From a virus: DNA of 64,000 bases. Numbering within the stretch: the stretch's first letter is position 1; the number at the start of each line of letters is the position of its first letter. The notes under the pieces were generated by a model that saw nothing but the letters and a program-made list of their open reading frames with translations, was not told the DNA's origin and ran no database searches. Both the position numbers and the translations under genes were made by a program. The stretch is taken from positions 33,463 to 97,462 of the IMG/VR virus record IMGVR_UViG_3300045902_000324; one strand, 5' to 3'. Positions 7,101-41,366 of this stretch are shown here, one piece after another.

Positions 7101-7219
7101 GAGGAACAATCTATCGTGAATTCTTTGGGTTTTGGCTGGCCGAGATCTATCTATACTTAGCACTCTTGCTCGAAAAGAAGAACGCCCTAGTGATGCCCCC
7201 TTGTGGCACACGAATCTAG
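4109..7219 (+). CDS. gpM-like minor tail protein with a large C-terminal domain
   Basis: Starts 2 bp after the tape measure stop. The first 115 or so residues resemble phage minor tail protein M: a repeated Trp/Phe pattern, FSWRPTE, then a Cys (YFCDEW) and WQISGKF, ending in a beta-rich stretch. Family members are usually 100-120 residues; this one is 1,036. The remaining 900 residues contain Gly/Ala-rich beta-like segments and, near the C-terminus, helical repeats rich in Trp and Tyr (DAYAAS, LAMLDAHYL, LIGRAAVYANLAGG) that remind me of alpha/alpha-toroid glycosidase folds. That resemblance is only an inference. As the fusion sits on a tail tip component it could be a receptor-binding or surface-glycan-degrading module. 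The stop codon overlaps the stop of the convergent prepilin-like gene in the palindrome CTAG. Confidence 0.65.
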   Translation: MPIPILELDPDWEIQEVSTIDQYKSELNDGYKQTATKNLPSSILSWEVRKTGLSQANLNLLLGQLETFAGSTPFSWRPTETVSYRAYFCDEWTVISYDTDCWQISGKFVQDVGGECVELLDLIDTVEITNWLAASDVWLTTYTRNTLPLIMNSVAGKPYLLVNSFHDVLGRGGYFPGSAGTTEGQFLMIRACMDVFNQTGIASWRQRAIDMAVALEPSLYRGQTVPADPNTLWLPHWVFNVKAPFTSKGLNTAPNPLNYGYFDLPVTFTAGVGQISAGAPNQGDKLSDVYSVYATGAKLLWQNVFAPVVFGTQYQVEYWVVNFMLGGQNFRIYPSSASSNGAPPLATTEPAGRIKLTTAFTGSLKVTYAAYTGSVIVANQVFDPYPFWRTLLPGEINSAFDVHWWAYDAYVKLAATTGLLKWTQAAEATRVNTINTAVVQNPTNWYKTEDNPNPFGYPGSQAIQVDNPNGYTASRETAIAGLLNTLKLVVAAAPGGTFPSIEVQNFAVQAQINAAVTIEVAIAQTTTATVRIALSLSPNAFDFSQTYYVNWHVEANTTALTSTSFIPENFFRWDNNLVWHLSIAETPIYVFSGGGGSATTGTFQATNIPYLGKTLKQAVGEIQMNAAAGFAGAGLVLIGRQVRRPPQLAFRTDKTIILRLTDGEGYKWDKEIANTGGWVFVRYPWSAFEFSPNNIGEEPQAPDTQNDIQNIEFIAVAGEGLTTVRIWWASEGTTNPPAQLPIPAQTYKAAVVSRNRNAHTFWVGNFRPANSPSDQLKYNPGVVPFTVNIVNGVVDAWRGLPYMGYQDPELWFKWGLTDRCQQVLDCLDAAQDAYAASTGVVGAFAPVFKWGYWDGGDYLGGLNTFSWSGADPNTSWGQYFYRPLEATAKYWSQNPGDRKADQIVMRGLAMLDAHYLKNNTSVPFTDFPQGAPPFAGYNDPAASALIGRAAVYANLAGGSPSITLRVINRTIKHLQSQYVSTGIMAGTWSAGQPTFVSGGTIYREFFGFWLAEIYLYLALLLEKKNALVMPPCGTRI

Positions 7220-7671
7220 CGAATCGGGCCGTTTCTATCACACACATATCGCACAATAGGGATCACGACATCATCTCCTGCTGCGATAGAACTACCGGGC
7301 ACTGTGTCTCTATCTGCGTTCAATCCGAAGAACGTGAACTGTGCAACACAAACACCATTGCTGCCGTGGTGGTCATAGTCGAGATCTGCTCCAAACGGCA
7401 TGTCGAGTCTGTCCACCCACACCGCCTCAAGTCCGGCTGGCGGCACGTTGCGATCTCGGTCGAGTGGGGGCTGACCCGTATCGGACTGGATCTCCAACAC
7501 CAGCGGTACCATATTTCTTGCTATCGACTGCGCCTCGGCATACAGAGCTTTGTTGCGCTGGTTCAAGTACGAGGGCAGCGCGATCGCAGACAGCACGCCG
7601 ACAATCGCAATTGTCACTAACAGTTCGATTAGCGTGAATCCTGGTTGACCATAATCAGTTCGTTCGTCCAT
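7216..7671 (-). CDS. Type IV prepilin-like protein
   Basis: 151 residues. The N-terminus is a textbook class III (type IVa) prepilin signal: a short leader ending in Gly11, then FTLIELLVTIAIVGVLSAIA, with Phe at +1, Glu at +5 and a hydrophobic helix of about 20 residues. PilD-type prepilin peptidase would cut after Gly11. The rest (Tyr/Asp-rich, with two Cys near residues 109 and 144 that could form the pilin disulfide loop) is compatible with a short pseudopilin or PilA globular domain. It is the last gene of the minus-strand tail operon, 48 bp after a tail fibre-like gene. Pilin genes are not usual phage cargo. A role as a minor pilin, decoy or pilus modifier is inference. Confidence 0.8.
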   Translation of the reverse strand: MDERTDYGQPGFTLIELLVTIAIVGVLSAIALPSYLNQRNKALYAEAQSIARNMVPLVLEIQSDTGQPPLDRDRNVPPAGLEAVWVDRLDMPFGADLDYDHHGSNGVCVAQFTFFGLNADRDTVPGSSIAAGDDVVIPIVRYVCDRNGPIR

Positions 7672-9093: not shown

Positions 9094-9888
9094 CTATCCG
9101 TTAGGGTCTACTTGACAATGCCCAATGTGCTCAGACAGTGGCGCAGGCATACCCACAGCGAAGCCCTGCAACAAAAGGTCGCACTGTGGGTATGGACGCA
9201 CCATCTCGTTCAACTCAGATATCAACGAGTCTGATTCGACCCACTCGGCAATACACAACAATCTAAGATCGTGACAAATGCTGAACAACCCTCGGATAAC
9301 AGCCCGATGTTTTGAGCTGTCCAGAACTCTAATCACAAACCCGCCGTTTATCTTTAGTCCGTCAATCTCTAGATTCACGATTGAGTCTAGATTTGAGTAA
9401 CCTATCCCAATATCGTCAAGCAAAATGGGAGACAATAGCGCCATACGCATCACGCTATCCCCAATTACTCGATAGTCGAGAGGCTGAGACTCAAGTACTT
9501 CTAGAATCAAACACGGCTCGATTAAACCGGACAGTACATCACCAACCCGGTCAGGTAAATCTTTATCGTGCAGTGATGCCGCCGTTAGATTAACTGTAAT
9601 TCTAATGTGCAGGTATCCACACGCTCTGAGCATCCGTAAATCATCGACAACTTGCCGCAACACCCAGGCATCAAGTGCGATCGCCAGCGTGTCAATTTCA
9701 AGAACGTCTGGAACGAACTGAGCCGCTTCAATGACACTCCCATCAGACCGGGACATCCGAATCAGAGCCTCAAACATTTTTGCAGGCTGCCCCAGTTCTG
9801 ACGGACGTTTTACTGGCTGATAGTAGACTCGCAAATCGCCACCGCCAGCCCGCAGTGCGTCCCACACTTTTTGTTGTATCTGGTTCAT
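9094..9888 (-). CDS. EAL-domain protein, putative c-di-GMP phosphodiesterase
   Basis: 264 residues, a single EAL domain without GGDEF, sensor or membrane segment. The ATG at 9888 is chosen because it overlaps the stop of J as TGATG; an in-frame start at 9969 would overlap J by 82 bp. Key catalytic positions are visible: EALIR (the EAL glutamate), VNLTAASL (Asn), LEVLES (Glu), LDDIGIGYSNL (normally DDFGTG), LKING (Lys kept, the usual Asp is Asn), AEWVE (Glu) and LLQGFAVG near the end. Active EAL enzymes hydrolyse c-di-GMP to pGpG using two metal ions bound by these residues. The pattern suggests an active, cytoplasmic enzyme that lowers c-di-GMP. It sits inside the tail operon, so it should be expressed late. 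Confidence 0.88.
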   Translation of the reverse strand: MNQIQQKVWDALRAGGGDLRVYYQPVKRPSELGQPAKMFEALIRMSRSDGSVIEAAQFVPDVLEIDTLAIALDAWVLRQVVDDLRMLRACGYLHIRITVNLTAASLHDKDLPDRVGDVLSGLIEPCLILEVLESQPLDYRVIGDSVMRMALLSPILLDDIGIGYSNLDSIVNLEIDGLKINGGFVIRVLDSSKHRAVIRGLFSICHDLRLLCIAEWVESDSLISELNEMVRPYPQCDLLLQGFAVGMPAPLSEHIGHCQVDPNG

Positions 9889-12587
9889 CAAACGAAAACT
9901 AGATTCTGGGATCTGGACATATCCAAACCACCTGTGATTGCTGCAATCACAGGCTGGCTGTTTACCCACAGCGAGGTGCGATTGTTAACATCAAGCACGG
10001 CGGCGCGACAGTAGTATGTTCCCCTGGTCAGATTCTCGAAACGACACTCATTGGTGCCTGCGGGCACTAGTCGAGTGTCCTGCCATACAATCCCATCGCG
10101 GGAATATTCAACATACACGCCGCGCAGGACGGACGCACTGGCTCCAACAACCCATCGGATGATCAACGTGTACTGCGGAGAAACAGACGGGTCAATCGCC
10201 TGTACAGCGATCGCCTGCCCCAAAACAGATTGAAGTGGTTCTACAACAGGTGGAATCGTAAACCGAGTTGGGGTCGGATCAATGGCTATATCATTCTCAA
10301 TGGCAAGCCATTTGTTCGCATCGTACTGGATGCAGTTGATGTCGATTTTTGTCGGGTCTTGCTGCGGGCGGACTGAGAGCACTCTAAACAGTTGAGCTTT
10401 CACCGAAGGCGACTGAATTACCCAATTCGATTCAGCCTGTGGGAGCTGCGAGAACGGCGGCCACACCTGTACCACATTTGACGTGACATTAACGCCGATC
10501 GTCCGGGTTTCGAGCAATCCGTTTGGCAACATGACAGAAAGCGTCATGCTCGTATTTACGGTGACTGTCGCGTCTAATCGAATCGTGTTAGAGTTAATAA
10601 CTTGTCCGATCAACCCGCCATAGCGAACGTTGGCAAAGTTTGAGTCTGCGACTTGAATCACTTCACCGGGTCGGCAGTATGCAGCGTAGCTTCGAGCGGT
10701 GAAACTTAGCGATCGCGTTTCATTCTTCGAGCTGTACAGAATCCATCTACTATTTCTAATCGCTAGAGATCTTGAGGTGCACCCAAAAAAAGCAACCTCA
10801 ACATCGCGGACACCATAGCGGTTGATCGCCTCAATATCCTCGACTACTTCCACAGCCCGTTGGTAATAGTCATTCGGGTCATTCCAGACACCTCTAACAA
10901 TCGTATGCCGAGTGCGGACAGCCGTTGAGGAATAAACGAAATCCCCTACCACATCAGCCTGTGTGAACTGATGATGACTCACCGGAGTTGGACGATCTTG
11001 CCAGAACTTTACGGTACCCTCCGCCCAGTATGCCCGCATGTGGCACGCCGAGCAAAAGGCGTTGATTACATCCCACGCTTTTTCAGCGGAGGCGATTTGA
11101 GTGTTGCAGGAATATCGGCGCTCAGATCCGCCGAATCCCGTAGGTACATACCCATTGTTATAAACAGACGCATCATACAGATCCCACTTGTCGATTAAAG
11201 AGTCATCCAAGTATCGACCCAGCCCATAGCGCCGATTTGTCAAAATGTCGAACAGTTGCCAAACCGGGTCACTGGTGGCTGTTGCAGGTGTATAGAAATT
11301 GCCGTCCCACACGCCTGAGAAGTTCAGCCCGCGATCGCCTGCGACAATAGCATTCGTGGGAATCCGAACACGCCGTCCACCAACTCGATACTGACGAGAC
11401 GGGATCGAGCTGAACTGGTCTGGGCTAAACTGAAGCCCGATATACGCTGTATACGGATAATTCAACTTATTGGTCGTGACCTCGGTATAGCTAATCCACC
11501 GAACCACCTGAATTGTGCGAGACGAGTTGGAATCACTTGAAATACGCCTCAGTCGGATCTGAAAATTGCCGACCGTACCAGACTGGTTGTTTACCTTGAA
11601 AGCGTGCTCAAACTCAGTCAGTCCACTAAACTTAGCTTTCAGATTTTTTCTGTAGCGAACTGTCCAGGGCGCGATGCCCTGCTTTATTTCGATCTGGTAC
11701 TCTACGTTCGTCCCCTTTACATCTCCATCCTCCTCATACTTCACGAGTTGGATGCCCAGGCGAACACGTATGACATCACACTCCGTGTTCACAAATGCGC
11801 GAGTCGCTGGGCCGGACGCATTCTTGATTTCAATATTTACAAAAGTCTCATTGCTGATCTCAACTCCTTCGTCTGAGATAATCTGCTGCGTTGCGTTCCC
11901 GCGCCGGAACTTATACCGGAAGCCCACAAAGTTGAGTGAGTTATTTGGGTTCTGGACAGGCGTCTCAGATAGATAAATCCCTTTACGAGCACCAATCAGC
12001 CCTTCAATCGGGCCCTCTGAAACAGCCTCCAAGACGTACGCTCTTGAGGTCGATCGCCCGTCGTCATCGGCCTCCTTTGGGCTGGACGCATTTTTTCCGC
12101 CGCCTCCGTTGTGAACACGCAGCCCATGTTCGCCAACCAGGAAGCTGTGGTAGTTCTCAACTCGCAGATTCCATACGGGTGCCACGCCACGCAGTCTAGA
12201 TCGCTCCAGAGGTCTAACCAGGTTTTCTCTATCAAATAGCGCAGCGTCTCGGCCAAGCTTGCCTATCTCCTGAAACGCCCCGCCATCGGTCAGAAACCAG
12301 TGGATCGGAGTTGCTGCTATGGTGCCGCCCCAGTAATCGTACTCCCACACCTCGTGGTTTCCGTGGAACTCTAGCGTTGCTTTGGCTACATGCAAATCGC
12401 CTTTTGAGTCAAACGCTGATACCCATGTACCCTCCGCCACATCCTGGATTTCTACAGTGCCATCTAGCGTGTGGATTAGCGTGCCGGACGGGAAACACCC
12501 CCCGCCTGATCCAAAAACAAGCCCGTCCACATGGCTTGACGGGATGGATGCAACAGCCTTAGTGCGGCGACGCCTAACCTTCGTCAT
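9888..12587 (-). CDS. Tail tip protein J (host specificity) with an embedded Hint domain
   Basis: 899 residues. ATG 12587 has an upstream GAGG and overlaps the end of the I gene by 14 bp; a start at 12602 is possible. It is homologous in order and appearance to lambda J: after residue 160, AYVLEAVSEGPIEGL and IYLSETPVQN match the J N-terminal hallmark, then the RISSDS and RYGLGRYLDD regions and a C-terminal fibronectin-like part. Residues 31-160 are a bacterial intein-like insertion flanked by Gly-rich linkers (see separate entry). J forms the tail tip and contacts the receptor. The stop overlaps the start of the EAL gene. Confidence 0.9.
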   Translation of the reverse strand: MTKVRRRRTKAVASIPSSHVDGLVFGSGGGCFPSGTLIHTLDGTVEIQDVAEGTWVSAFDSKGDLHVAKATLEFHGNHEVWEYDYWGGTIAATPIHWFLTDGGAFQEIGKLGRDAALFDRENLVRPLERSRLRGVAPVWNLRVENYHSFLVGEHGLRVHNGGGGKNASSPKEADDDGRSTSRAYVLEAVSEGPIEGLIGARKGIYLSETPVQNPNNSLNFVGFRYKFRRGNATQQIISDEGVEISNETFVNIEIKNASGPATRAFVNTECDVIRVRLGIQLVKYEEDGDVKGTNVEYQIEIKQGIAPWTVRYRKNLKAKFSGLTEFEHAFKVNNQSGTVGNFQIRLRRISSDSNSSRTIQVVRWISYTEVTTNKLNYPYTAYIGLQFSPDQFSSIPSRQYRVGGRRVRIPTNAIVAGDRGLNFSGVWDGNFYTPATATSDPVWQLFDILTNRRYGLGRYLDDSLIDKWDLYDASVYNNGYVPTGFGGSERRYSCNTQIASAEKAWDVINAFCSACHMRAYWAEGTVKFWQDRPTPVSHHQFTQADVVGDFVYSSTAVRTRHTIVRGVWNDPNDYYQRAVEVVEDIEAINRYGVRDVEVAFFGCTSRSLAIRNSRWILYSSKNETRSLSFTARSYAAYCRPGEVIQVADSNFANVRYGGLIGQVINSNTIRLDATVTVNTSMTLSVMLPNGLLETRTIGVNVTSNVVQVWPPFSQLPQAESNWVIQSPSVKAQLFRVLSVRPQQDPTKIDINCIQYDANKWLAIENDIAIDPTPTRFTIPPVVEPLQSVLGQAIAVQAIDPSVSPQYTLIIRWVVGASASVLRGVYVEYSRDGIVWQDTRLVPAGTNECRFENLTRGTYYCRAAVLDVNNRTSLWVNSQPVIAAITGGLDMSRSQNLVFV
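12108..12497 (-). other. Bacterial intein-like (Hint, BIL type A-like) domain inside J
   Basis: 130 residues from Cys31 to Asn160 of J. Block A is CFPSGTLIHT, block B has AATPIHWF with the TxxH pattern, and the C-terminal block reads NYHSFLVGEHGLRVHN, ending in the His-Asn pair used for cleavage. There is no homing endonuclease. The residue after Asn is Gly, not Cys, Ser or Thr, so classical protein splicing is not expected; this matches BIL type A domains, which cleave or splice by another route. Flanks are GSGGG and GGGGK, so both excision and cleavage would leave a flexible linker. Confidence 0.85.
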
Positions 12588-13167
12588 CGGAATCATCCTC
12601 AATCATGTACGACCGGATCGAGGCACTGAGCACCTGACTACCAACGAGCAGTTCTCCATACACGACTGGCAGACGACCCCCTTGAGTCGTCGTATTGACC
12701 CCGCCATTAAAAATTAACGATGGTTTGTTTTTTGCATCATTCGGGTCAGGTGCTTTGGGCTGGTTAAACAGTTCCATGATGCCGGACAGTGCCAGACTAC
12801 CCCCGATCAGTGCGACGGATGCCGCCGACAACCCCAGGAAGCCCACGCCAGTCGCACCCAAAACAACCAGACCGATTCCAAGCAAAATTTTGCCGAATGC
12901 CCCACCTCCACCCAATGGCGTTGGCGCTATCGTAATTGTCTGTTTTCCAGTCGGCATCGAGACGTGCTGTTGCTCAATAGCCCAATCCCCGACAGTAATC
13001 TGGAAACCTACCCCACGCTCATGCGCGACGACCATGTAGTTGCGAAATGTCGGGAACGCTGACTCAAGGGCCCTGATCGCTTCTTTCACCGATCCAACGT
13101 TTAATCGGATCTCAGAAATGAACCGATCTGCCAACTCATCTTTCAACACAACAGTCACCATCGGCAT
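12574..13167 (-). CDS. Tail assembly protein I-like
   Basis: 197 residues. The start overlaps the stop of the K-like gene (TAATG). The N-terminal 85 residues look like the ubiquitin-like domain of lambda I (MVTVVLKDEL, then a helix SVKEAIRALESAF). A Gly-rich hydrophobic hairpin follows near residues 88-130 (IGLVVLGATGVGFLG and SVALIGGSLALSG), then PKAPDPND and a C-terminal GRLPVVYGELLVGS motif typical of the family. It lies between K and J as in lambda-type genomes and should help assemble the tail tip. Confidence 0.82.
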   Translation of the reverse strand: MPMVTVVLKDELADRFISEIRLNVGSVKEAIRALESAFPTFRNYMVVAHERGVGFQITVGDWAIEQQHVSMPTGKQTITIAPTPLGGGGAFGKILLGIGLVVLGATGVGFLGLSAASVALIGGSLALSGIMELFNQPKAPDPNDAKNKPSLIFNGGVNTTTQGGRLPVVYGELLVGSQVLSASIRSYMIEDDSDDEG

Positions 13168-15973: not shown

Positions 15974-16074
15974 ATCCAATTGGGAGAAATCCATTTTTAA
16001 TTGGGAGAAATGCCAATAGCCAGGCATGACAGACCACACTGTCAGCACGAATGACACACCCAATGACAGCCTAA

Positions 16075-16102
16075 AACCCTTGCCCACCAAGGGTTGTTTT
16101 TT
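16075..16102 (+). terminator. Intrinsic terminator in left arm
   Basis: Stem AACCCTTG / CAAGGGTT followed by GTTTTTT on the plus strand. It would end transcripts coming from the endolysin and small membrane protein genes. Confidence 0.75.
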
Positions 16103-16132
16103 ATCTGTCGAGAGTATCTGTCATGACCTGTC

Positions 16133-16544
16133 ATGGTGCTGTCAGAGCGTGTCAGACAGGCTGGAAGTATTGATATATATAGCGTTTGGCGACCTGTCAT
16201 GACTGTCTCGCAGTTTCACAATAAAGAAACGTGTAAAAAACGGCTGAAACAGGAGGAAAAGGGTTCAAATGTACTATCGCTGAGAGGGTCTGAGGTGCTG
16301 GCGGAAGCATCGGGAAACATAGAGGTGTCCACAGTCAAAAGAAAAGTGGAATGGAAAAGCCTTTCATATATTTCTCTAATTCTCTAGACCCATTTTTGAG
16401 TAGTACATTTGTATTTTTTATCCCTCTTTTAGCCCTCTCAGACACTATTTTTTTATTGCAAATGGGCGAGACAGTCATGACATGTGTCTCAACCCCTTGT
16501 GTGGTAACGGTTGTAGCCTGTCTGACTAGCTCGGACACACCCAT
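16133..16544. other. Pair of convergent small open frames, mirrored in the two arms
   Basis: Plus-strand frame 16133-16387 (84 codons) and minus-strand frame 16335-16544 (69 codons) are mirror copies that overlap at the centre. Their translations share SE-x-VRQA, VMTVS and NVL in the same order. The similarity may simply follow from the duplicated DNA. No clear ribosome site precedes either ATG. Coding status is undecided; they may be small DNA-binding proteins or non-coding. Confidence 0.3.
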
Positions 16545-16574
16545 GACAGGTCATGACAGATACTTTTTTGGAAT

Positions 16575-16603
16575 AAAAAAGAACCCTTGTATATCAAGGG
16601 TTC
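16575..16603 (-). terminator. Intrinsic terminator in right arm
   Basis: Stem GAACCCTTG / CAAGGGTTC with a run of six T on the minus strand (16575-16580). It lies downstream of radC and is the mirror copy of the left-arm terminator. Confidence 0.75.
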
Positions 16604-16703
16604 TAGCTGTCTCGCTCGTATGATGCGTGGTCTGACGGGTCTGCCTGTCACGCCTCTGTCAGGGCATTTCTCCCAATTAAAATCATATTTCTCCCAATTG
16701 GTT

Positions 16704-17776: not shown

Positions 17777-18184
17777 TCAAGCTATAGGCGAGTCTTGAGC
17801 CTTAATGTATTCCTTAAGTTTCTCAATTGGCGCTCCACCTGTTGAAGCCACATAGTAAGAGCCTGACCAGAAAGACTGTTTTGTGTACCACTTTGAGAAC
17901 TCTTCAGAAAACTCTTTTTTGACCATGCGGCTAGTTGCCGCCTTGAGAGAACCTGCAACAGCGGCAATCGACTGTTTGGGATGAAAATCGACTAGCAGGT
18001 GAATATGATCCGCTTCTCCAGAACATTCCAACAATTCACAGTCCATCGTTCTACAGACTTGCCAGCACATTTCTCTAATCCGTTCCAGCATTGCAGCAGT
18101 AATTGCTTTGCGCCTGTAATGGGTAACGAATACGAAGTGTAACCGCACACTAAAAACACTGTGTGAACCCTTCCTAGCCTTCAT
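17777..18184 (-). CDS. tnpA: IS200/IS605 transposase TnpA (HUH/Y1)
   Basis: 135 residues, full length. HUH motif in EADHIHLLVDFHP and the catalytic Tyr in LKEYIKAQ. It cuts and joins single-stranded DNA at the element's end hairpins using the 5'-phosphotyrosine. All key residues are present, so it is likely active. Confidence 0.93.
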   Translation of the reverse strand: MKARKGSHSVFSVRLHFVFVTHYRRKAITAAMLERIREMCWQVCRTMDCELLECSGEADHIHLLVDFHPKQSIAAVAGSLKAATSRMVKKEFSEEFSKWYTKQSFWSGSYYVASTGGAPIEKLKEYIKAQDSPIA

Positions 18185-18218
18185 TGCAAATACCCCACCT
18201 GCAAGATATAATGCTCTT

Positions 18219-19472
18219 ATGATGACACGCAGAGTTACCTTTAGGCTGTATCCATCTGAAGCGCAAACGGCAAAGCTGTTTGAGGCTCGGAGGCTTCACG
18301 CCTATCTCTATAACGCTTGCGTTGAGCATCGTAAAACGAGCTATCAGAAGTTTGGCAAGTCCATCAGCTATTTTGATCAGCAAGCCGCGCTTGTACCGTT
18401 TAAGGCTGATTGGCAGGAGTATAGAGCGCTCAATCATGGCTCATTGCAAGCCACAGTGAAGCGGGTTGATTTTGCCTTCCAGCGCTTTTTCAAAGGACTG
18501 GGTGGGTATCCCAAGTTTCAAGCGATTCGCCGTTACTCTGGCTGGACATACCCTGATGCCCGTCAAGGCTTTAAGGTGCATTCAGACGGCAAGAATGGAT
18601 ACTTGGAATTGCGGGATCTAGGGCTAAAGCTCCAGATGCGAGGGCAAGCGCGAACTTGGGGCGCTCCCACGACTTGCACAATTGTCTATCGTAACGGGCT
18701 ATGGTTTGCCAGCATCACGGTAAATTGCGAGGTTGCGCGCAAAACCGGCAATGGCGCGGTAGGAATCGATTTTGGCGTACTGACGGCTGCGGCATTGTCA
18801 AATGGAACCAAGATCGAAAACCCGCGCTTCATTGCCAAAACGCAAGCCAAGGTTCGCAAAGCAAGCAAGGCAAAGCGTCGCAAGCGCTCACCCAATCTCA
18901 AGCAAAAAGTTAAAGCGTCAAAACGATGGAGGAAAGCGTCTAAGCGGGTATCAAAGCTGCAACGCAAAGTTGCAAATCAGCGGCAGAACTGGGTACATCA
19001 AGTCTCTACACAGATAGTCAGCAGTAATAGCTTGGTAGCGACTGAAAAGTTAAACCTCAAAGGGATGACTCGCAAGGCGAGGAAAGGAAAACGCAAGGCG
19101 CAAAAGTCAGGGCTAAACCGCTCCATTCTGGATGTTGGGATGGGGATGTTGCGCGCTGCGATTGCGTATAAGTTGGCGGAAGCAGGGGGTTTCTTTGTGG
19201 AGGTGCCGACGCTCACGGTTAAGCCTTCTCAGACTTGCCCCAGTTGTGGTCATCAGGAGAAAAAACCACTTGAGCAGCGAGTGCATCATTGCCAGCAATG
19301 CGGTTATGTGGAGGATAGAGATGTGGCGGCTGCTCAAGTCATGCTCAATTGGGCACGGGGTAAGGAACTTGCCTCGTCAAACGTGGATGGGTCTGGCTCT
19401 ACTGACTGCGGAAGCATGAAGCAACTAGCCCAAACGAAGCGTCAGAAACTCCTAGCTCAGCGAAGCGGCTAG
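18219..19472 (+). CDS. tnpB: TnpB RNA-guided nuclease (IS200/IS605)
   Basis: 417 residues. RuvC-type catalytic residues are visible in VGIDFG (Asp), VATEKLNLKGM (Glu) and VEDRDVAAAQV (Asp). A zinc ribbon CPSC...CQQC lies before the last one. TnpB proteins cut DNA guided by RNA from the element's right end and promote element retention. It is divergent from tnpA with 34 bp between. All active-site residues are intact. Confidence 0.93.
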   Translation: MMTRRVTFRLYPSEAQTAKLFEARRLHAYLYNACVEHRKTSYQKFGKSISYFDQQAALVPFKADWQEYRALNHGSLQATVKRVDFAFQRFFKGLGGYPKFQAIRRYSGWTYPDARQGFKVHSDGKNGYLELRDLGLKLQMRGQARTWGAPTTCTIVYRNGLWFASITVNCEVARKTGNGAVGIDFGVLTAAALSNGTKIENPRFIAKTQAKVRKASKAKRRKRSPNLKQKVKASKRWRKASKRVSKLQRKVANQRQNWVHQVSTQIVSSNSLVATEKLNLKGMTRKARKGKRKAQKSGLNRSILDVGMGMLRAAIAYKLAEAGGFFVEVPTLTVKPSQTCPSCGHQEKKPLEQRVHHCQQCGYVEDRDVAAAQVMLNWARGKELASSNVDGSGSTDCGSMKQLAQTKRQKLLAQRSG

Positions 19473-22906: not shown

Positions 22907-25900
22907 ATTTTTTGAGGATCAGAGGTTCGAGTTCTAGGACTGGAGCACCCACAATGTCCGGCTGAAAGAGAATCGCGTTGAGTCCATCCTGGAACCCTAC
23001 GATTACACCTGTCATGCCGACAGATGCGGAGAAACCCGTTTCAGCAATCTCATCCAGTATTTCTTTGGCTTCGTCTAGGTGCAACGCAGAGATATCAATC
23101 GCAGCGCGATCGCCAACGGTGAAACCATAGCCGGACTCGGATGTTTGGGTGCCCGTTCCTATATCGTCTTCTGTTTGATTCTGTATGTCAATGGTTTCAT
23201 CGCACAAAGGCGATTCTTCTACGGGCGAAACGTCCTCCACAGGTTCGGGCGGTGGTGCATCGGGTGGAGCGGGAACGTCTGTAGCGTTCTGGGCAAAATA
23301 GGTCACGATGCCGCGATCATTCTCTTCAATACGCCCGCGTCCAGACTCCTGAAGCTGTTTCAAGATGCTTAACGTCAAATCACCAACGGATACACCACTC
23401 TCCTTGGCCATGCGCTGGAGCGTGGATATCTTGCGGTAAATTTCCCGCATCGTTACGCCGCCAGCAAAACTCTCTGCGTACTCCTGGATTCGGAACGCCA
23501 GCGATGTCGGTTCACCGCTCTCGTCAGCCCGTGCCTGCATTAGCAGGTTTTGGCGCAGGTAATACTTGCACAGCAAAATCGATCGCTCTAGCGTGGGAAG
23601 CTGGAGCAGCAGGTTGTCCTTAGACGGGTCAGCCGCGCACTCCATGCAGTGCAGAACCAAAGCTAAGCGGCAGACGTATGCCTTCAACTTTGCGATGAAA
23701 TTTCTGATAGCTTGCCTCTTCTCACGGAACCTGAGTTCGGCAAGGACGTTGTGGAACTGCACCAGCCTTCTATCGCTCTCATCCGTCAGCCGTACATCCT
23801 GCTGTGGAAAGGATTCCAGACCGTTGAAAATTCTATTCAATACCTCGTGTAGTGCATCCTTCTTGTCCTGCCGATTCTCTTTGTAGTCACGGTATGCGAC
23901 CTCTGATTTTGGCGCAGCAATCAAAAATCGGGCCCGCTTACCATTGTCATCGTCGGGATCTTCAAATACCTTTTTGGCTACACCGGGCTGAAGCCCACCT
24001 GCCATCGACAGACGCGGGTTATGGATGGCGAACGTGCGATCTTCGTCCATCCGGTTGACGCTGATCTGATTCGCGTCCCACAGCCCCAGCATGACCTCTA
24101 CGTCATCCCCGCCGCGAGACTTGTACTGGCCAAGACCTCGGATAATTCCGGCGAACTCGTCCTTTGCCCACAAGGTGCCCGCGTTCTTTGGTTGCTGGGA
24201 TAGCCCTTTTAGGACGGATTCAATTTGAGCGATGTCAAACTTGTAATTCCTGCGCCTCGGCGCTGTGGGCACATCCCCGTCACCGTCCCCGTCTTCACCT
24301 TTCTTACGTTTGCGAGACGTTGCCTGGGCATACTCTTCACGCGCTCTTTCATATCTCTCGTCAGCGAGTTTCTGTCTATCCTTAATCGGCTGAAGCATCG
24401 CGGATTCTGCGCGGGACTTACCGCCGCCAGACTCCTCAATGATCAAAGCCCAGATTACGGCTGGCTCTTTCCAGTGGTTGTTGTCCGTTGCACCTTCCTG
24501 CACAATCAGGTTCGTTCTGCCACCGATCATGGATGCCGCCGATGGCAATAAATACTGAAGCAGCATTACTGGGCTTATGCCCATGCGCTTTGCACGGAAA
24601 TCCATCGACTCCGCCAAGTCGCTAGGAAGCACGTCCTTTAACTCAACGTGCTGGTCTGCATACTGATACAGCTTGGCGATCTCCGAGCTGTCCACGAACA
24701 TATCGCGGTCAACCTCTCGGAGGTCGCATCGCACCCGGTACATTTGCAAAAGCGTCTGCGGGTTTCTCGCAGAGCGTTCTGCGATATCCAGGACTTCCTT
24801 AATCGCCTGTCCCTCATTCAGGTGCCGTTTTACCAGCGCGTCAATGCACTGGCTAACTTCTTCGAGCGTGTGGATGCGGCGATCGCCCCCGCCATTCCCG
24901 TTACCGCCATTTCCGTTATCCCCGCCTCCGCTGCCGTTGCTCCCACCGCTACCGTTCCCATTGCCGTTTCCTCCGGCTACTGGAGTACCGTTGCGGCTGG
25001 GCGGATCATACGGCACTGTGGACGGCGCACTTAGCGACGTTCTTATGTCCGCCGGGCACTTTTCCTGAAATAATTCTGGAACGAGGTGTTTCACTTTTTT
25101 CCACGCGGCTTCTTCGCCGCCCCCAAAGGTACAGGCAGGGCTGGCGGAGTTCCACCTAGCCGATTTAGCAATTCTCGTGGCGCGACCTGCGTCCACACCC
25201 ATCCGCTCTCCAGCCGTCACCGTCAGTACAATCGGGTCGCCCGTTGTGGGTATCCCGTTCGCGCTACACCAGTTCATCCAAGAAATCCACTCGTTGGCGG
25301 CAGCCGTTAGCGTGGCGCTGCGGTCTGACTCTGTATCGACCCCATTCAAAATGTCCTTAGACTTCTGACTACCTAGCCGTTCCAGAGCGATCGCATTTGG
25401 TGCATCGGACTGTGTGACCACTCCGTCAAACACGGCTGCTGATTTATTTTCAGAACGCCTAGCGTATAGCCCAATACTATCAAGCGTCGGTACTTCAATC
25501 AGAACCCCGAAGTTCTGAACAGTTTCGTACGCTCGTCCGCTGGGTCCCATAGTCGGGGACATGGCGCAGAAGCGTCCAACGGGCATCGCTTCGCCAATAT
25601 GCTTGCCACCTGGCTCAAACGCAAAATTTGTGAACGCGGGCTTTTCTACCACAGCGACATAGACATGCCATCCGCCGCCCTGCGTCCGCTCTAACCACGC
25701 GCTTTTCAGGACGGGATACTTCTCAAGCCACTCACCGAAAACGCGATCGCTTTCTTCCTGACTATCAAAATTCTTTGCGTCCCAGTCAATCGGGACAAAG
25801 TGCCTGCCATCCGGCAGAACAAAACCCAGCGTGCCTACACCATTCTTCGAGTTAGCAAACCAGCGCTGGACTTCTCCTGCGGTAGGCACTTTGTTCTGGT

Positions 25901-34080: not shown

Positions 34081-34453
34081 TCAGACCGAAAACAGCCAAA
34101 GCACCCGCAATCAATAGCCCGTGTGTGACTGCATCTTGAATGCTGAGCAGCACGCTCGGCGTCTCTTTTCTATAGTTCAACGGAGGAGAATACCGATCAA
34201 TGGCGATCGCCTCTTCGTGCTTTCGTCGCCGCTCGTTCAGATAGACTTTGTACCGGATATGCGTGACGCCATTTCTCTTCAGTTCGTCTGTCTTGTGGTG
34301 CGGGCCGTAGCCACTGTTGTCTGTCCAGCGCCGCCGCAAGTTGGAGGATTCGCCCACATATAGTAGGCGGAAACGACTGTAGCAGTAATAGACTCCGGGC
34401 TGAGCGGGTAACGTGTGACGATGTTTCCATGCAACCTGTTTAGTGGACATCAA
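33983..34453 (-). CDS. GIY-YIG nuclease-like protein with a membrane segment
   Basis: 156 residues. GIY-YIG core: GVYYCYSRFRLLYVGESSNL, the Arg/Lys-rich helix after it, and the Glu of RRKHEEAIAIDRY, with SPPLNYRKE. The first motif reads GVY and the second YVG, an accepted variant. After the nuclease domain (about 95 residues) comes a hydrophobic segment, HGLLIAGALAVFGLIVRG, so the protein is probably membrane-anchored with the nuclease on the cytoplasmic side. Start overlaps the stop of the M23 gene (34450-34453). A membrane-tethered nuclease could act on incoming DNA; that is inference. Confidence 0.7.
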   Translation of the reverse strand: MMSTKQVAWKHRHTLPAQPGVYYCYSRFRLLYVGESSNLRRRWTDNSGYGPHHKTDELKRNGVTHIRYKVYLNERRRKHEEAIAIDRYSPPLNYRKETPSVLLSIQDAVTHGLLIAGALAVFGLIVRGTISDARCDIETGGLAARSCWTPAGRATP

Positions 34454-35718
34454 ATTTTTTTATCCTGACACTGAGCTGATTTCTCTGGGTCGATTGTTCC
34501 GAACGTCTGGTCGCCCGATATCCCCGGAATAGCCGTTATGGGGTCTATAACTAATCCAGAGGTATCTGTTATCTCGAAATGTGAGTGCGGGCCAGACGAG
34601 TTGCCAGTGCTTCCCATCCGAGCGATCGCATCACCCTGGTCTACGGTGTCACCGACCTTCACCAGGTTCTCGGAGTTGTGTCCGTACAGTGACTTGGTGC
34701 CGTCAGCGTGCTTAAGAATCACCTTATTCCCAAGTCCATCGCCCACATCGCCCGAACTGATCACTGTGCCGGACTTCGCTGCCAGGATAGGCATACCGAC
34801 CGGGCCAGCCATGTCTATGCCGTAATGACACATTCTAAACTTGGGATCTTGATGGTCACGCCAACCAAACCCGCTAGTGAATATGGCACCTGGGACTGGG
34901 TTGATCCACCCGCCTCCGCCACTGCTCTTACCTGATGTTGTCGGCTTCTTCAGCGCCAACACCTTGTCGATCGCATCCATGCGCCGCTGCTGGTCTTGCT
35001 CAATCGTGATGCCGTTTTTGGTGATGCCTGGTGCATCGCCCTGGTAGCTTTCGACGCGGGCGCAAAGGATATCCCCCTTGCACTGCTTCAGGTACTTAGC
35101 GAAATCTGCTCCCGCCGCTGGCGATTGATTCAGTAAGTCTGCGGCATTCAGCCACACTTTAGGATCGTTAGGCAGCTCAGGAGCTATCGAATCAAGCTGA
35201 CCGCGCAGCCGCGTCAGTTGCTTTTGGTCTGCCGCCTCCGGAGAGGCAGCACCATGCTGATAAGAGAACGTCCCCATATTGGTAACGCCGTTGCCGGGGT
35301 CGGCATGGCTGCCATAGGCGCTGGTCTTGCCGCCGTCTGGGGTGCGAGTCCCCTCAGCATTGCCGACAGCGATCGCCACAAGCGAATCAGCCCCACCTTC
35401 AAACATCTGATCGATGCTGGTGGGCGCTGCTCCGGTATCAAGCTCCTGATCAGCCAGCTCTGCATCCGCCAGAGCACTAGCCGCCAGCGCATCAGGAACA
35501 GACAGCTTCGGTACTCCTGGCACTGCGTTATACGTCTGGATCATCCTGATCGCAACCAGCGACACCTTGTGTGGGGCTGTCAGGATCAGGATGAACGCGA
35601 TTGTCAGCGCCCCCATCTGGGCATACCAACCAAGCGGCGGGCGTTGCATCTCCTTCAGATCTTCAGGAGTGACCCGCCCTGTTACGTTGTAGGTCATGAC
35701 TTTTCTCGGCTTTGACAT
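34450..35718 (-). CDS. Membrane-anchored M23 peptidase 1
   Basis: 422 residues. One membrane helix near residues 31-50 (YAQMGALTIAFILILTAP), a long Ala/Asp/Gly-rich periplasmic stalk, then an M23 (LytM) domain from about residue 285: FTSGFGWRDH, CHYGIDMA (HxxxD zinc motif) and GPHSHFEI (HxH). All zinc ligands are present, so an active peptidoglycan endopeptidase is likely. Two Cys lie in the stalk. Part of the operon running from parM. Confidence 0.87.
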   Translation of the reverse strand: MSKPRKVMTYNVTGRVTPEDLKEMQRPPLGWYAQMGALTIAFILILTAPHKVSLVAIRMIQTYNAVPGVPKLSVPDALAASALADAELADQELDTGAAPTSIDQMFEGGADSLVAIAVGNAEGTRTPDGGKTSAYGSHADPGNGVTNMGTFSYQHGAASPEAADQKQLTRLRGQLDSIAPELPNDPKVWLNAADLLNQSPAAGADFAKYLKQCKGDILCARVESYQGDAPGITKNGITIEQDQQRRMDAIDKVLALKKPTTSGKSSGGGGWINPVPGAIFTSGFGWRDHQDPKFRMCHYGIDMAGPVGMPILAAKSGTVISSGDVGDGLGNKVILKHADGTKSLYGHNSENLVKVGDTVDQGDAIARMGSTGNSSGPHSHFEITDTSGLVIDPITAIPGISGDQTFGTIDPEKSAQCQDKKI

Positions 35719-35738
35719 TGACTGTGGATGATGACTAT

Positions 35739-35846
35739 CTACGGGCGCTGTCGCACGATCGCAGCGTTCATAAATACAGCTATGTATTCTTCAATCGTTT
35801 TCTGTTGGCGTTTCTGTGCCCAGCGCCGGGGGCGTACTTCTTTCAT
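35739..35846 (-). CDS. Possible small basic protein (35 residues)
   Basis: A short open frame in the gap between the two M23 genes, starting ATG 35846 five bases after the upstream stop. Strongly basic (MKEVRPRRWAQKRQQK), then a helix IEEYIAVFMNAA. No good ribosome site, so only a candidate. Confidence 0.3.
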   Translation of the reverse strand: MKEVRPRRWAQKRQQKTIEEYIAVFMNAAIVRQRP

Positions 35847-35851
35847 AATGT

Positions 35852-37075
35852 CTAAGGGGTTTCTGGTTCTGTCGTTGATTGCGGTTCAGGAGTTTGCTCC
35901 GGCTCCGGCGGTGCCTCATTTTCTGTGGGCACTCGTGCATCACCGGGTAACGGTTTTGCCACAGCGCCCGGTGTCTTGATTTTCAGGAATCTTTCGATCA
36001 GGTTGATTGTTGGCGGCGTGTACTCTCGATCGCCTTGCCAGTCCTGCCCGTCAATCTTGGCAACTTCGACATGAGCGTGCGGGCCAGTAGACGTACCTGC
36101 CTCCGGCGTTCCGTTGTCTGCGCCAGTGGTGCCTAGCAAAGTGCCGGGTTTCACCTCGCCATCTGGCACGTCAATCGTCTTCATGTGGCACACCTGCACC
36201 ATGTGCCCGCCTTCTTTCGGGAGCAGCAGCAAGACTTGTCCACATCCTCCTGTCTCAGCCGGGGTGCGAGTCTTTGCAGTGCCCGCAAATGGCATGAAAA
36301 TTTGAAAGCTTCCGCCGATGTCCACACCGTTGTGCATTGACGGCTGACCCGTCACAGGGTGCGTTCCCCGAAATCGCATGGTGTCCGTCACCTTCAACAC
36401 ACCTTGAGGCGAGTTGAAATCGATCAGCGACTCAACGCGAGTACCTTTGAAAGGATCGCCCGTGAATCCATCCGCAATGACATCGACTATGGCGTTCGAC
36501 GTATCGACTGGCACTGTGGCAATCCCCTGCACCAGCGGATACAGTACGCGCAGCCACAACGTCAGAATGACGATCGCCATCAGCATGTGCCGCATCAGCA
36601 CAAACTTTGACATGTAGCGCTTTTTGTTGACGAGCGCTTCAACCAACGTCTCCACCCAGGCGACAGACTCTTGCAACGGAGCCTGCACTTGAGCTAGATG
36701 TGCCGCCATGCGCGACTCTATATCGTTAGCGACTCCTTCAAGGTAGTCACCTCGCCCAGCCAAACGCTTTTTCTCAAAGTGCTGACGAATAGATTGTTGT
36801 CGCGCTTTACGACGAGCCTCTTTAGCCGCAGCAGCACTTGTCTCTTCAGCAAACGTTTCCATGTCTATCCAGTCGAAGCCCACAGACTCCGCCTGGTAGT
36901 CGTCAGTGTACCAGTTGGCAGGATACTCCTCTGCTACAACTTCAGCGTCACGAACGTCTTCTGGCGCATCATCGATCTCGCGGAAATCGGTGACACGTCT
37001 TGACGTATCTTTTGGTGCGGGCGTTACTGGCTCGAACGTTACGTCCTGAATGTCTGGGGGCTTAACTTTTGGCAT
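35852..37075 (-). CDS. Membrane-anchored M23 peptidase 2
   Basis: 407 residues. Cytoplasmic N-terminal 170 residues are acidic and then Lys/Arg/Ala-rich helical (AAAAKEARRKARQQSI). A membrane helix follows near residues 172-195 (LMAIVILTLWLRVLYPLVQG). The periplasmic part carries an M23 domain: MHNGVDIG, CHMKTIDV and GPHAHVEV. The tail is Pro/Glu-rich (PEPEQTPEPQ). All zinc ligands present. Own promoter at 37100-37130. Confidence 0.87.
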   Translation of the reverse strand: MPKVKPPDIQDVTFEPVTPAPKDTSRRVTDFREIDDAPEDVRDAEVVAEEYPANWYTDDYQAESVGFDWIDMETFAEETSAAAAKEARRKARQQSIRQHFEKKRLAGRGDYLEGVANDIESRMAAHLAQVQAPLQESVAWVETLVEALVNKKRYMSKFVLMRHMLMAIVILTLWLRVLYPLVQGIATVPVDTSNAIVDVIADGFTGDPFKGTRVESLIDFNSPQGVLKVTDTMRFRGTHPVTGQPSMHNGVDIGGSFQIFMPFAGTAKTRTPAETGGCGQVLLLLPKEGGHMVQVCHMKTIDVPDGEVKPGTLLGTTGADNGTPEAGTSTGPHAHVEVAKIDGQDWQGDREYTPPTINLIERFLKIKTPGAVAKPLPGDARVPTENEAPPEPEQTPEPQSTTEPETP

Positions 37076-37099
37076 GATTATACGCGGGGCTGCTTTACA

Positions 37100-37130
37100 T
37101 ATCGTCTATCATCTACCTTAACTTTGTCAA
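37100..37130 (-). promoter_or_regulatory. Promoter, TTGACA-18-GACGATA type
   Basis: -35 at 37130-37125, -10-like GACGATA at 37106-37100. The gene at 37075 follows within about 25 bp. Confidence 0.6.
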
Positions 37131-37156
37131 GCGTAATCCGTTGAAAATATGTTGGT

Positions 37157-37762
37157 TTAGTTGAAAAACTCGAAGGACAATGACCCGTTTTCTGCCTTAA
37201 CGTCTACAATCCCAAAGCCGTCGTCCACCAGAAAACGCCACCAGTTCGCCCCAAAAATACAGTTCGGCTCACCAAGCGCCGACTGCGCTTCGATCAAGTC
37301 AGCCATCCTAAGCTGCCCGCTCTCCCACAGGTCTTTAAGCTTGGATACTTTTGCTAGAGATACTCTGGACTCGGCATTCTGAACAGAACTCTGTGGGCAG
37401 GCCAGCAGCCTGTTATCTACAGCGGGGGACATCTGCTCTGCGGTTGTCGTTTGCTCTGGTGGCACCGGGGCTGGCACATCCTCGCCCTGATAGCGGGCAA
37501 TCGCACCACTCGCCTCTCCTGCCACTTTGCCACCAAACTCACCTAGCGCTTCATGGGCGGGTTTTGAGTTTTCATAATCGAAATCCTTCCCGTCAGCCGC
37601 CTGCACACCACTCTTTCCAATGGCAAGCAAAAACTTAAACGTTGGGGCGAGGTTGAACTTGCCGGGTGCCTGCGTCAACTCTCCTCCTACCCACCCTGCT
37701 ACGCCGATCAGAATGGCGATCGTCATGGCACCCACAAACCAATCATGTACTCGTCCTAACAT
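37157..37762 (-). CDS. Membrane protein of unknown function
   Basis: 201 residues from ATG 37762 with GAGGTGA upstream. A single N-terminal membrane helix (AMTIAILIGVAGWVGG, residues 12-27) and a periplasmic domain with three Cys, including LACPQSSVQ and PNCIFGANWWRF. Two Cys could form a disulfide. Between the peptidases and the other membrane genes of the operon. No family recognised. Confidence 0.6.
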   Translation of the reverse strand: MLGRVHDWFVGAMTIAILIGVAGWVGGELTQAPGKFNLAPTFKFLLAIGKSGVQAADGKDFDYENSKPAHEALGEFGGKVAGEASGAIARYQGEDVPAPVPPEQTTTAEQMSPAVDNRLLACPQSSVQNAESRVSLAKVSKLKDLWESGQLRMADLIEAQSALGEPNCIFGANWWRFLVDDGFGIVDVKAENGSLSFEFFN

Positions 37763-37816
37763 CTCTCACCTCTGTGGAAATCGAGTGGGCTGAAGACAGC
37801 CCATTTACTGTACGGC

Positions 37817-38182
37817 TTACGGCAGCGGAGCGGGATCGACTGGTGCTGGGAATAGCATGGGAGGCGCAACAATTGTGGCACCTGGCGGCTGAGCCTCCGG
37901 CAGCGGTGTTCCATCAGCGTTGGCAGCACCATCAAAGTTCGACGGGAGCAGGTTCAGCATCCGATGCACGAAGCATCCGATACTGCGGGCGTAGGAATCC
38001 TCGTTCAGGAAGTTGTGAGCGACCTGGCAGTTCCTACCCTGAACGCCCATCGCGGTATAGGTGATGATGCCACCGCCGGCCAACACCAGCAACGCGCAGA
38101 AGACACCTGCTGGTGTAAATCCGACGTTATCCCATAGGAAGTTGAAAACGTCACTGAATCCTACATTCTTGTTGTCGCGCAT
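37817..38182 (-). CDS. Small membrane protein
   Basis: 121 residues from ATG 38182, preceded by AAGGAG. One membrane helix (GVFCALLVLAGGGIITYT, residues 27-44), then a periplasmic segment with two Cys (GRNCQVAH, SIGCFVHRM) and a Pro-rich tail. Function unknown. Confidence 0.6.
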   Translation of the reverse strand: MRDNKNVGFSDVFNFLWDNVGFTPAGVFCALLVLAGGGIITYTAMGVQGRNCQVAHNFLNEDSYARSIGCFVHRMLNLLPSNFDGAANADGTPLPEAQPPGATIVAPPMLFPAPVDPAPLP

Positions 38183-38215
38183 CGATCTCTCTCCTTAGAT
38201 TTACAACTTTGAAAC

Positions 38216-39793
38216 TTACGCAGCCCAGGCTTGCTGAGTGTGCGTACGAGCGGTCATGTATGCTGCATCGCCGGGGGCAACGTCGAAGATCACCCGGATT
38301 GCCTTGTCTTGATGTAGCCCGTTGGACTGACACCAGGACAAGCGATCGCGCAGCACACCAAGGTCAAACGGTCGGTCAGGCGATAGCACAGACCATGTGG
38401 ACACTTCAGCCAGTTGCTCAGGGGTCAGCCCACGCAGCTTGGCTGCACGCTCCGGTGATAGCGTTACCGCTGGTGCTGCGACTGGAGCAGTGGCAACGGG
38501 ATCCGTCATCAACCCGGCTTTCTTTGCCAGCGTCAACGCCCTCTCGTTCTCGGAGCCAAACACTCCGATTTCTGGGTGAGCGTTTTTCAACGCCCACATC
38601 TTGCCGAACACGGCACCCATCTGCTTCGGCGTGATGTCTAGCGCTGTTGGAATCAGACCAACTGTGTCTGGTTGCAAGAAGAAGACACCCTCTGGGCGAC
38701 GGCTGTCTTCCAGCAAGTCTTCCAACAGTTCAGCAGTCTCTTCTGTGGCCGCCATCCACCCATTGCCGCGCAGCGTGTCTAGTGCGGTCTTGCCTTGAAC
38801 CCAGAACGTGAGAGCGGAACGGGCAGGGGCATCCTTGACGTAGAGCGCTTCCACAGTTGGGCTGGTCGCCCCGATCACTGAACCGACTTTTAGGCTGTGC
38901 CCAGACACGGCGATCGCGTTGAGAACCGTATCCATAGCAGCGGCTTCCTGCTTGTTCAACACGCTGCTTAGCTTGACAGCGGAATAGTCTTCGATGACTA
39001 ACCATAGTTCTGGCTGCTCACCCAGTTCCGCCACGCTCATCTGGTGTCGAGCCTTTAACACATCACCCACCAGCTTTACAGCAGACGCGACTGACGCATG
39101 TGGACGGACTACGCCGGGGACGCGCTGCAACAGTGATTCTCGCTGGCTGATGAGGATTGGGATAGCGCGGTCTGCGATCGCCGTTGTGAGGGCAGAAATG
39201 ACGCCGTTGCGGACATCGCGCTCACCGAGCACAACCACACCGCTAGGTTTTTCCGTCGCTTCCTCGAATGCGCCATAGATCGTTGCTACATCATCGATAC
39301 CGGAGTTCTCTACTACGTCATCCATCGGACTGGCGACATAGCTTGAGTACGATGCTTCAAAATTCGAGATCGGCGGCTGCGTGTACGTGACTGGCTGAGG
39401 ATCTGTGTCAAGTGACGCAAGCGCAGCATCCTGAGAAACTACCGGGGCCTGTTGTCTGACCACGATTGGGGCAGGCGTCTGCACTGGGACTACAGTGTCT
39501 TCTTCTTCCTCATCGAATACCTGACTCGTAGAAAAGTCAAGCGCTATACGCACAGTAGCACCAACTGCCATCAGCGAAACCAACGTCATCAACCACCACA
39601 GAGGGGTTCGCTTTGCGTAGACCTCGAAGCCCTGCACGGGCTGCCCCGCTTCGTTGGTGCGCGTGGACTGGCGAATCTGAGCATCGGAGTACAGGGTGGC
39701 TCCGTAGAGCAGGAGCAGGGATGATGCGCTCAGTGCTGCGGCCTGTAACATCTCGTCTAGCGACCAAGTTTTCTTGACGTTTAATTCGATCAT
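38216..39793 (-). CDS. Two-helix membrane protein with a large cytoplasmic domain
   Basis: 525 residues, start overlapping the upstream stop (ATGA). Two membrane helices near residues 15-35 and 65-87 enclose a short loop, an arrangement common in coupling-protein-type ATPases. The cytoplasmic domain begins with an acidic stretch (FDEEEEDTVVP). Near residue 188 is VVVLGERDVRNGVISAL, where a Walker A would sit in HerA/FtsK folds, but the GK(S/T) signature is missing. LWLVIEDYSAV is a Walker B-like strand. It might be a degenerate, non-hydrolysing ATPase relative. That is a weak inference. Confidence 0.6.
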   Translation of the reverse strand: MIELNVKKTWSLDEMLQAAALSASSLLLLYGATLYSDAQIRQSTRTNEAGQPVQGFEVYAKRTPLWWLMTLVSLMAVGATVRIALDFSTSQVFDEEEEDTVVPVQTPAPIVVRQQAPVVSQDAALASLDTDPQPVTYTQPPISNFEASYSSYVASPMDDVVENSGIDDVATIYGAFEEATEKPSGVVVLGERDVRNGVISALTTAIADRAIPILISQRESLLQRVPGVVRPHASVASAVKLVGDVLKARHQMSVAELGEQPELWLVIEDYSAVKLSSVLNKQEAAAMDTVLNAIAVSGHSLKVGSVIGATSPTVEALYVKDAPARSALTFWVQGKTALDTLRGNGWMAATEETAELLEDLLEDSRRPEGVFFLQPDTVGLIPTALDITPKQMGAVFGKMWALKNAHPEIGVFGSENERALTLAKKAGLMTDPVATAPVAAPAVTLSPERAAKLRGLTPEQLAEVSTWSVLSPDRPFDLGVLRDRLSWCQSNGLHQDKAIRVIFDVAPGDAAYMTARTHTQQAWAA

Positions 39794-40566
39794 TGGGCAC
39801 CCCCTGGCGCTCGGTTTACCAATTTCTGTGCAGCCTGCACTGTTGCTGCGAGACTAGCATTATATGCGTCGCTTTGGACTTGCCCGGTGCGGGCTTTCGG
39901 CGTACGTGTGGACGATGCGTTCGACCAATCCTGCAAAGCAGCCAGTACATCCAAGAAATTTCCTTCCGCAGCCCGAAACCGACTTGCGGTGTCTGCGTCA
40001 ACCCGAATCGCTTCTACCGTGGGCAGAGAAATCTGAACTTCGACTGGAGCACCCTGGTTAGCGGCCTCTACCTTATTCTGATACTCCGCCATCGTTGTCG
40101 CGTTCGGCTGCATCTGATACTTGGTGCTTGACTGGATAGCGACAGACCATGCGGTCAACTGCTCCATCAGGTAATGCCCCTCGGTTGGGTACAGATTTGA
40201 GTTCATGCGTGATTCTTCGCGGGCACGATCCAGCCACAGCTCGACCCGTCCTGTACGTACGTGCTGACCGATCAGTGCGGACTGAGTGCGGAAGTATCCG
40301 GCTGCACCAACAAACGTGGTGAACGCCTCCTGGTCTGCTGAGGCTTCAAGCGCGGCTGGCGTTTCACTTGCCGTTTTGTCAGTCGCCGCAGGCTGCAATA
40401 ACTGAGCCGCCTGAACAAACTCGCGCTTCTCGTGAACGAATAGGAATCCGGTGACTCCGCGCACCAGCAGCATAAACGTAACCAACCCACCGCCCAGGGC
40501 AGCCACAAACAGCAACCTCTGTAGGTGCTTTGCTCTGGGCTTTTCTTCAACGTTCGCATTAATCAT
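39790..40566 (-). CDS. Single-pass membrane protein
   Basis: 258 residues. A membrane helix at about residues 16-38 (RLLFVAALGGGLVTFMLLVR) and a helical periplasmic domain (EAANQ, TASRFRAAEGNFLDVLAAL). Coupled to both neighbours by overlapping start and stop codons. Unknown function, probably part of the same envelope complex as the flanking membrane proteins. Confidence 0.6.
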   Translation of the reverse strand: MINANVEEKPRAKHLQRLLFVAALGGGLVTFMLLVRGVTGFLFVHEKREFVQAAQLLQPAATDKTASETPAALEASADQEAFTTFVGAAGYFRTQSALIGQHVRTGRVELWLDRAREESRMNSNLYPTEGHYLMEQLTAWSVAIQSSTKYQMQPNATTMAEYQNKVEAANQGAPVEVQISLPTVEAIRVDADTASRFRAAEGNFLDVLAALQDWSNASSTRTPKARTGQVQSDAYNASLAATVQAAQKLVNRAPGGAQ

Positions 40567-41363: not shown

Positions 41364-41366
41364 CAC

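Follow-up and report, generated by a model that had tools for sequence, protein, structure and literature searches.

The mirror-symmetric element at positions 15976-16701 (copy 1) is one of two such elements in a phage genome, and both are non-coding, share motifs, one of them found nowhere else in that genome, and surround an AT-rich core. As the best explanation, in which we place about even confidence, copy 1 would belong to a pair of cis sites resembling replication origins in a cyanobacterial siphovirus, bound by an initiator and comparable to oriL and oriR of phage SPP1. Good support for copy 1 as a cis-acting DNA site, with putative dyad and iteron motifs for protein binding, comes from copy 2, the exclusivity of the motifs, the protection from transcription and the AT-rich core. 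The analysed window, a stretch of 64 kb, represents positions 33463-97462 of a virus record of 97,462 bp; positions refer to the window unless the record is named.

Two mirror-symmetric elements in one phage genome

The inverted duplication that a sequence-only reading of the window had described, centred at 16338/16339, proved to be real. In total, 217/363 mirrored positions match between the arms of copy 1, compared to 93 +/- 8 after composition shuffling (z ~15). An unbiased scan of all mirror centres of the 97,462-bp record gave a mean of 91 +/- 8.5 matches and a best background value of 133, and copy 1 ranked first by a wide margin. The mirrored alignment of the two arms is free of indels across the full length, and the exact register noted earlier thus holds for copy 1, whereas copy 2 has small indels. 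Arm identity amounts to 72% over 16071-16229/16448-16606 and 75% over 15973-16045/16632-16704, and the AT-rich centre (~16300-16376) is without symmetry.

Copy 2 was found both by homology search and by the mirror-centre scan, in which it ranked second (157/363 mirrored matches) as the sole other outlier of the record. It is located at record positions ~390-1125 (centre at 844), outside the window and therefore beyond the view of the sequence-only reading. On one side it is flanked by a leftward gene whose start near 345 lies some 50 bp to the left of the left outer box, and on the other by a ParB gene ending at 1336. The two copies are both intergenic, lie in inverted relative orientation, have diverged from each other and differ in their flanks. 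The recurrence of the layout in this diverged copy, the sole replicate and from the same genome, supports the earlier proposal that the layout is under selection. With respect to their relationship, one block (AGACAGGC..CCACACAA) in the right arm of copy 1 is most similar to the left arm of copy 2, and other blocks are common to both arms of one copy. Among the alignment columns that divide the four arms two against two (gap columns included), 31 group the arms within a copy, 17 follow the inverted match and 15 show the remaining split. This pattern suggests that an already mirrored element was anciently duplicated and then partly homogenised within each copy.

Small coding frames, one of which had been noted in each arm, were rejected. 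Similarity between the arms is about the same in all reading frames and copy 2 contains no frame matching the small frames of copy 1, which argues that they are non-coding; in addition, the mismatches between the arms of copy 1 show no excess at third codon positions. A search of the element against Rfam for structured RNA gave a sub-threshold chance hit and none above the gathering score. Likewise, no tRNA that could indicate a tRNA-linked attachment site is present within the 64-kb window.

Phased motifs, AT-rich core and transcriptional context

The features of copy 1 are listed below by window position and strand.

15976..16701, no strand: copy 1, the whole mirror-symmetric element, with the highest count of mirrored matches of all centres in the record
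15978..15990, + strand: AATTGGGAGAAAT box 1 of the left arm; matches with at most one mismatch are confined to the two elements
15999..16011, + strand: AATTGGGAGAAAT box 2 of the left arm, 21 bp from box 1
16075..16102, + strand: inward terminator (stem 16075-16095), predicted to stop rightward transcripts from the endolysin side
16117..16160, + strand: left iteron array CTGTCATGA / CCTGTCATGG / TGCTGTCAGAG / CGTGTCAGACA, spacing 10-11 bp (one helical turn)
16192..16211, + strand: left inner box GACCTGTCATGACTGTCTCGC, kept in 4/4 arms
16266..16277, + strand: left core box CAAATGTACTAT, with ATGTACTA kept in 4/4 arms
16362..16421, no strand: AT-rich core (76.7% AT), putative unwinding element
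16400..16411, - strand: right core box TAGTACATTTG, facing the left core box
16466..16485, - strand: right inner box ACATGTCATGACTGTCTCGC
16517..16560, - strand: right iteron array, mirror of the left array
16573..16604, - strand: inward terminator (stem 16604-16580), predicted to stop leftward transcripts from the RadC/replication operon
16666..16678, - strand: AATTGGGAGAAAT box of the right arm; matches with at most one mismatch confined to the two elements
16687..16699, - strand: AATTGGGAGAAAT box of the right arm, with matches confined in the same way

As the sequence-only reading had stated, AATTGGGAGAAAT occurs twice per arm (spacing 21 bp) together with four GTCATGAC words. Genome-wide, AATTGGGNGAAAT boxes with at most one mismatch are exclusive to the two elements; they occupy the outer ends of copy 1, and their positions in copy 2 are mixed. 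The word GTCATGAC is ~260-fold and TGTCATG ~88-fold enriched in the elements, and the motifs do not occur as arrays at other gene starts of the genome. Iterons of the CTGTCATGA type are spaced by 10-11 bp in 4/4 arms of both copies, forming arrays of about four steps per arm, the first two or three of which are near-perfect. Going inward from the iterons, TGTCATG(A)CTGTCTCGC follows after ~40 bp, then an A-rich run and finally the core box ATGTACTA, an order conserved in 4/4 arms; the inner box common to both copies reads GACCTGTCATG(A)CTGTCTCGC. The core of copy 1 (16362-16421) represents the most AT-rich of all 60-bp windows in the 97-kb record, and that of copy 2 reaches the 99.7th percentile of AT content. 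Both elements therefore combine what is expected of an iteron-type origin, namely short, helically phased repeats and an AT-rich region adjoining them. DnaA-box-like sequence is limited to one weak word (CTTTCCACA) in copy 2, with no consensus box in the elements, and no DnaA homologue is encoded in the record.

Copy 1 is located between convergent genes. The endolysin gene and a short ORF lead into it on the left side, and the RadC gene, at the end of a long replication block, on the right. One inward terminator per arm had been noted earlier, and both stems were found (16075-16095 on the + strand and 16604-16580 on the - strand). With the flanking genes converging on these terminators, no neighbouring gene is left for copy 1 to regulate. 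In copy 2, the inward terminators are not kept, and there are weak outward promoter-like matches, including a mirrored pair overlapping the iterons. Across both elements, the frequency of promoter-like matches in the scan was near chance.

These data bear on the three roles proposed by the sequence-only reading, of which the replication origin fits best and the partition site is a live rival, whereas a double operator is a poor match for copy 1, given that both neighbouring genes end there. As a double operator, both arms would be occupied by a phage repressor or activator controlling divergent transcription. The mirrored promoter-like pair of copy 2 and the gene starting just left of its outer box would suit such a function, but the near-chance promoter counts, the inward terminators of copy 1 and the lack of similar motif arrays at other gene starts make it improbable.

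We further considered the origin of the element itself. The contig IMGVR_UViG_3300044961_000417 covers the record from 22451 to ~75175, shows one difference over the compared parts and carries copy 1 unchanged. It may represent the same virus from a related sample and would in that case not be fully independent; its near-identity argues against a gross assembly error. Given the unchanged element in this contig and the differing flanks of copy 2, an assembly artefact or a dead transposon is unlikely. The presence of the same element in related genomes, raised in the earlier reading, was thus confirmed for one near-identical contig, but not for any diverged relative in the collections searched: pattern scans returned this contig plus chance hits, and protein scans with RadC, ParB, PolA, terminase, helicase and capsid gave no further relative. 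The mirror element and its iterons are also absent from Nodularia phage 2AV2 and two Oscillatoria plasmids, which are distant relatives with regard to PolA or ParM. A palindromic, MITE-like mobile element remnant that was inserted twice could account for two diverged, inverted copies at intergenic positions. We regard this as very improbable, since a target duplication is not apparent by eye, conservation resides in short phased motifs and not at the ends, the outer parts differ between the copies and the core pattern revealed no similar element in 2.9 million viral or 11.3 million genome contigs. Moreover, the AT-rich core and the terminators would be left unexplained.

Proposed origin-like sites and competing roles

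For the preferred reading as origin-like sites, the inferred steps (binding of a protein, melting, action as origin or barrier) and the role of each copy would be as follows. A candidate phage DNA-binding protein would load cooperatively on the phased CTGTCATGA arrays and the inner boxes of both arms, and would bend or wrap the AT-rich core and thereby melt it. The melted core could then allow loading of the phage helicase/primase and polymerase, while the inward terminators would hold transcription off the core. Copy 2, about half a genome away, might be bound by the same protein and provide either an alternative origin or a fork barrier. In the latter case, the barrier could induce a change to concatemer (sigma) replication, in line with what has been proposed for SPP1 oriL/oriR. 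The phage encodes several replication-type genes (PolA, a sliding clamp, a DUF3987 protein matching a phage helicase family and DEAD-box helicases), and a RuvC-like resolvase gene was recognised from sequence reading only. No initiator gene was recognised among the proteins scanned with Pfam, PHROG and NCBIfam, many of which are without assigned function, and neither copy is located inside or beside a recognisable initiator gene.

The closest comparison is offered by the origins of SPP1. Here, oriL and oriR are similarly organised, with repeats and an AT-rich unwinding element, and both are bound by gp38; replication starts at oriL, and according to the proposed model, gp38 bound to oriR stalls the fork and thereby sets off sigma replication (PMC6316719, PMC3485210). 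Shared with our virus are two similar, repeat-bearing, AT-rich elements per genome, of which one is intergenic with transcription signals on both sides (PMC6316719, PMC3485210). In contrast, the SPP1 origins contain direct repeats by description instead of mirrored arms, oriL lies within the initiator gene 38 whereas the elements described here are unlinked to a known initiator, and the origins are ~12-13 kb apart compared to ~49 kb in this virus. A second comparison is provided by herpesvirus oriL, a palindromic origin in which sites for the origin-binding protein flank an AT-rich spacer. The mirror-placed boxes around an AT-rich centre are alike, but herpesviruses belong to another virus realm, and the present elements have several phased iterons per arm and diverged arms as opposed to a near-perfect palindrome. 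To our knowledge, replication origins are hardly characterised for phages of filamentous and other non-marine cyanobacteria. The mirror pair would therefore provide a compact, sequence-defined and testable origin candidate in an orphan virus, and possibly a second example of an SPP1-style two-site switch from circle to concatemer.

Partition (centromere) sites of a plasmid-like phage are the main rival, which we consider unlikely, though worth serious attention. A ParB CTPase or a ParR-like protein would bind the palindromes and iterons, and segregation would perhaps proceed via ParM. The ParB gene (record 1336-2445) adjoins copy 2 only, and its product has canonical-looking CTPase motifs (NPNQPRRSF, GERRFRA, ENVSRKDMT), with matches to Pfam ParB_N (E 3e-11) and to Spo0J/Noc structures (E down to 3e-12). 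This position suits a partition role too and counts against the origin reading. An actin-like ParM/StbA relative is encoded at 41367-42806 (phrog_691, E 6.5e-5; 25-28% identity to plasmid ParM). Furthermore, no match to a tyrosine integrase or resolvase was found in the record, which makes a plasmid-like, extrachromosomal prophage plausible. Palindromic or phased repeats are a feature of ParB/parS and ParR/parC systems, and centromere iterons of ~11 bp are known from R1 parC. Nevertheless, no ParA is encoded (no AAA_31/ParA in the record, in a search that detected 14/14 controls), and ParM is located ~25 kb from copy 1, unlike a parC, which lies beside parMR; the 21-bp repeat just upstream of ParM would be the likelier parC. 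The iteron lacks the form of a clean palindrome of the parS type (14-16 bp), and the motif matches no known parS. Further, the site occurs in two copies, and a centromere would need neither the most AT-rich stretch of the genome nor shielding from transcription. It is common for ParB proteins to occur as orphans without a ParA (PMC12704722).

Instead of initiation, the element could serve recombination, dimer resolution, fork trapping or DNA packaging, to which we assign a low probability. Two inverted copies that would be antipodal in a circular genome suit opposed polar sites such as a fork trap, and a Gp3-like protein of the RDF family is encoded. On the other hand, searches of the record gave no match to a tyrosine or serine recombinase or to a protelomerase, and the terminase genes are located elsewhere. 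N15-type telomeres (tos/telRL) also have inverted repeats on either side of a centre, as in this element, but a perfect central palindrome and a protelomerase are both absent here; the imperfect centre excludes telomere resolution.

Virus, genome layout and strand composition

The gene set of the record is that of a tailed phage (terminase, portal, capsid, tape measure, GpJ-like tip protein and endolysin), with several of these genes recognised from sequence and gene order alone. The terminase shows at most ~40% identity to any phage in the collection, and PolA is most similar to that of Nodularia phages (26%). TnpB of an IS200/IS605 insertion is 73% identical to TnpB from the cyanobacterium Rippkaea, and GCGATCGC words are present in the sequence. 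Based on these two features, the host is very probably a cyanobacterium.

When the end of the record is joined to its start, one frame stays open across the junction for ~200 codons and stops just before the next gene, an event with a chance expectation of about one in three. No known domain spans this junction (window 63717-64000 plus record 1-345). Consequently, a circular genome, or a linear record representing a complete circular or permuted genome, is plausible but unproven. The centres of the two copies are 48,957 bp apart in 97,462 and would, in a circle, fall within 226 bp of antipodes (chance ~0.005). A more specific, and in our view doubtful, idea is that a circular genome has two inverted mirror origins or fork barriers at its antipodes, with one protein starting forks at one site and stopping or restarting them at the other. 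We know of no such antipodal start/stop layout in tailed phages.

In GC skew, suggested earlier as a check, there is no reversal at either copy and the cumulative GC skew keeps falling. The change in strand composition typical of a bidirectional origin is thus absent, and long-term bidirectional theta replication from either copy is not supported; a one-directional or short-lived phage origin does not require such a change. At third codon positions, the + strand is C-rich in three of four gene classes, comprising both orientations in the first half and the leftward genes of the second half, and is approximately zero in the fourth, the few rightward genes of the second half. This C-richness irrespective of gene orientation is compatible with one-directional replication and hints at it. 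A scheme in which replication runs from an origin at copy 2 to a terminus at copy 1 was rejected, because the GC3-skew test was inconsistent with it, although 73% of the coding length is co-oriented with the scheme.

Several other loci of the record deserve mention. In the region 34450-42806 (- strand), the ParM/StbA-like actin gene (41367-42806) precedes the gene of a 105-aa protein and a run of genes for membrane proteins and M23 peptidases. A comparable arrangement (ParM, hypotheticals, murein hydrolase) on two plasmids of Oscillatoria acuminata suggests a cell-envelope module linked to ParM. A possible parC is formed by two direct repeats of 18 nt (42553-42591), spaced by 21 bp and located immediately upstream of the ParM gene. 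Two unlinked proteins, encoded at 41049-41366 (- strand) and record 24793-25590 (- strand), have in common a 52-residue domain (46% identity; RYRITSPDV..VPHNHALMGHLNATLP), possibly a ParR-like DNA-binding domain. Beside the tail genes, we found an EAL-domain protein of the cyclic-di-GMP phosphodiesterase type (9094-9969, - strand) and a type IV pilin-like N-methylation protein (7216-7671, - strand). The GpJ-like tail tip protein itself (9888-12602, - strand) contains, close to the N-terminus, a Hint/intein-like stretch with a weak match to Pfam. Finally, two IS200/IS605-type insertions with TnpA and TnpB-like genes are located at 17777-19472, 0.3 kb beyond RadC and carrying the Rippkaea-like TnpB, and at 46198-47940, the latter identified by sequence reading.
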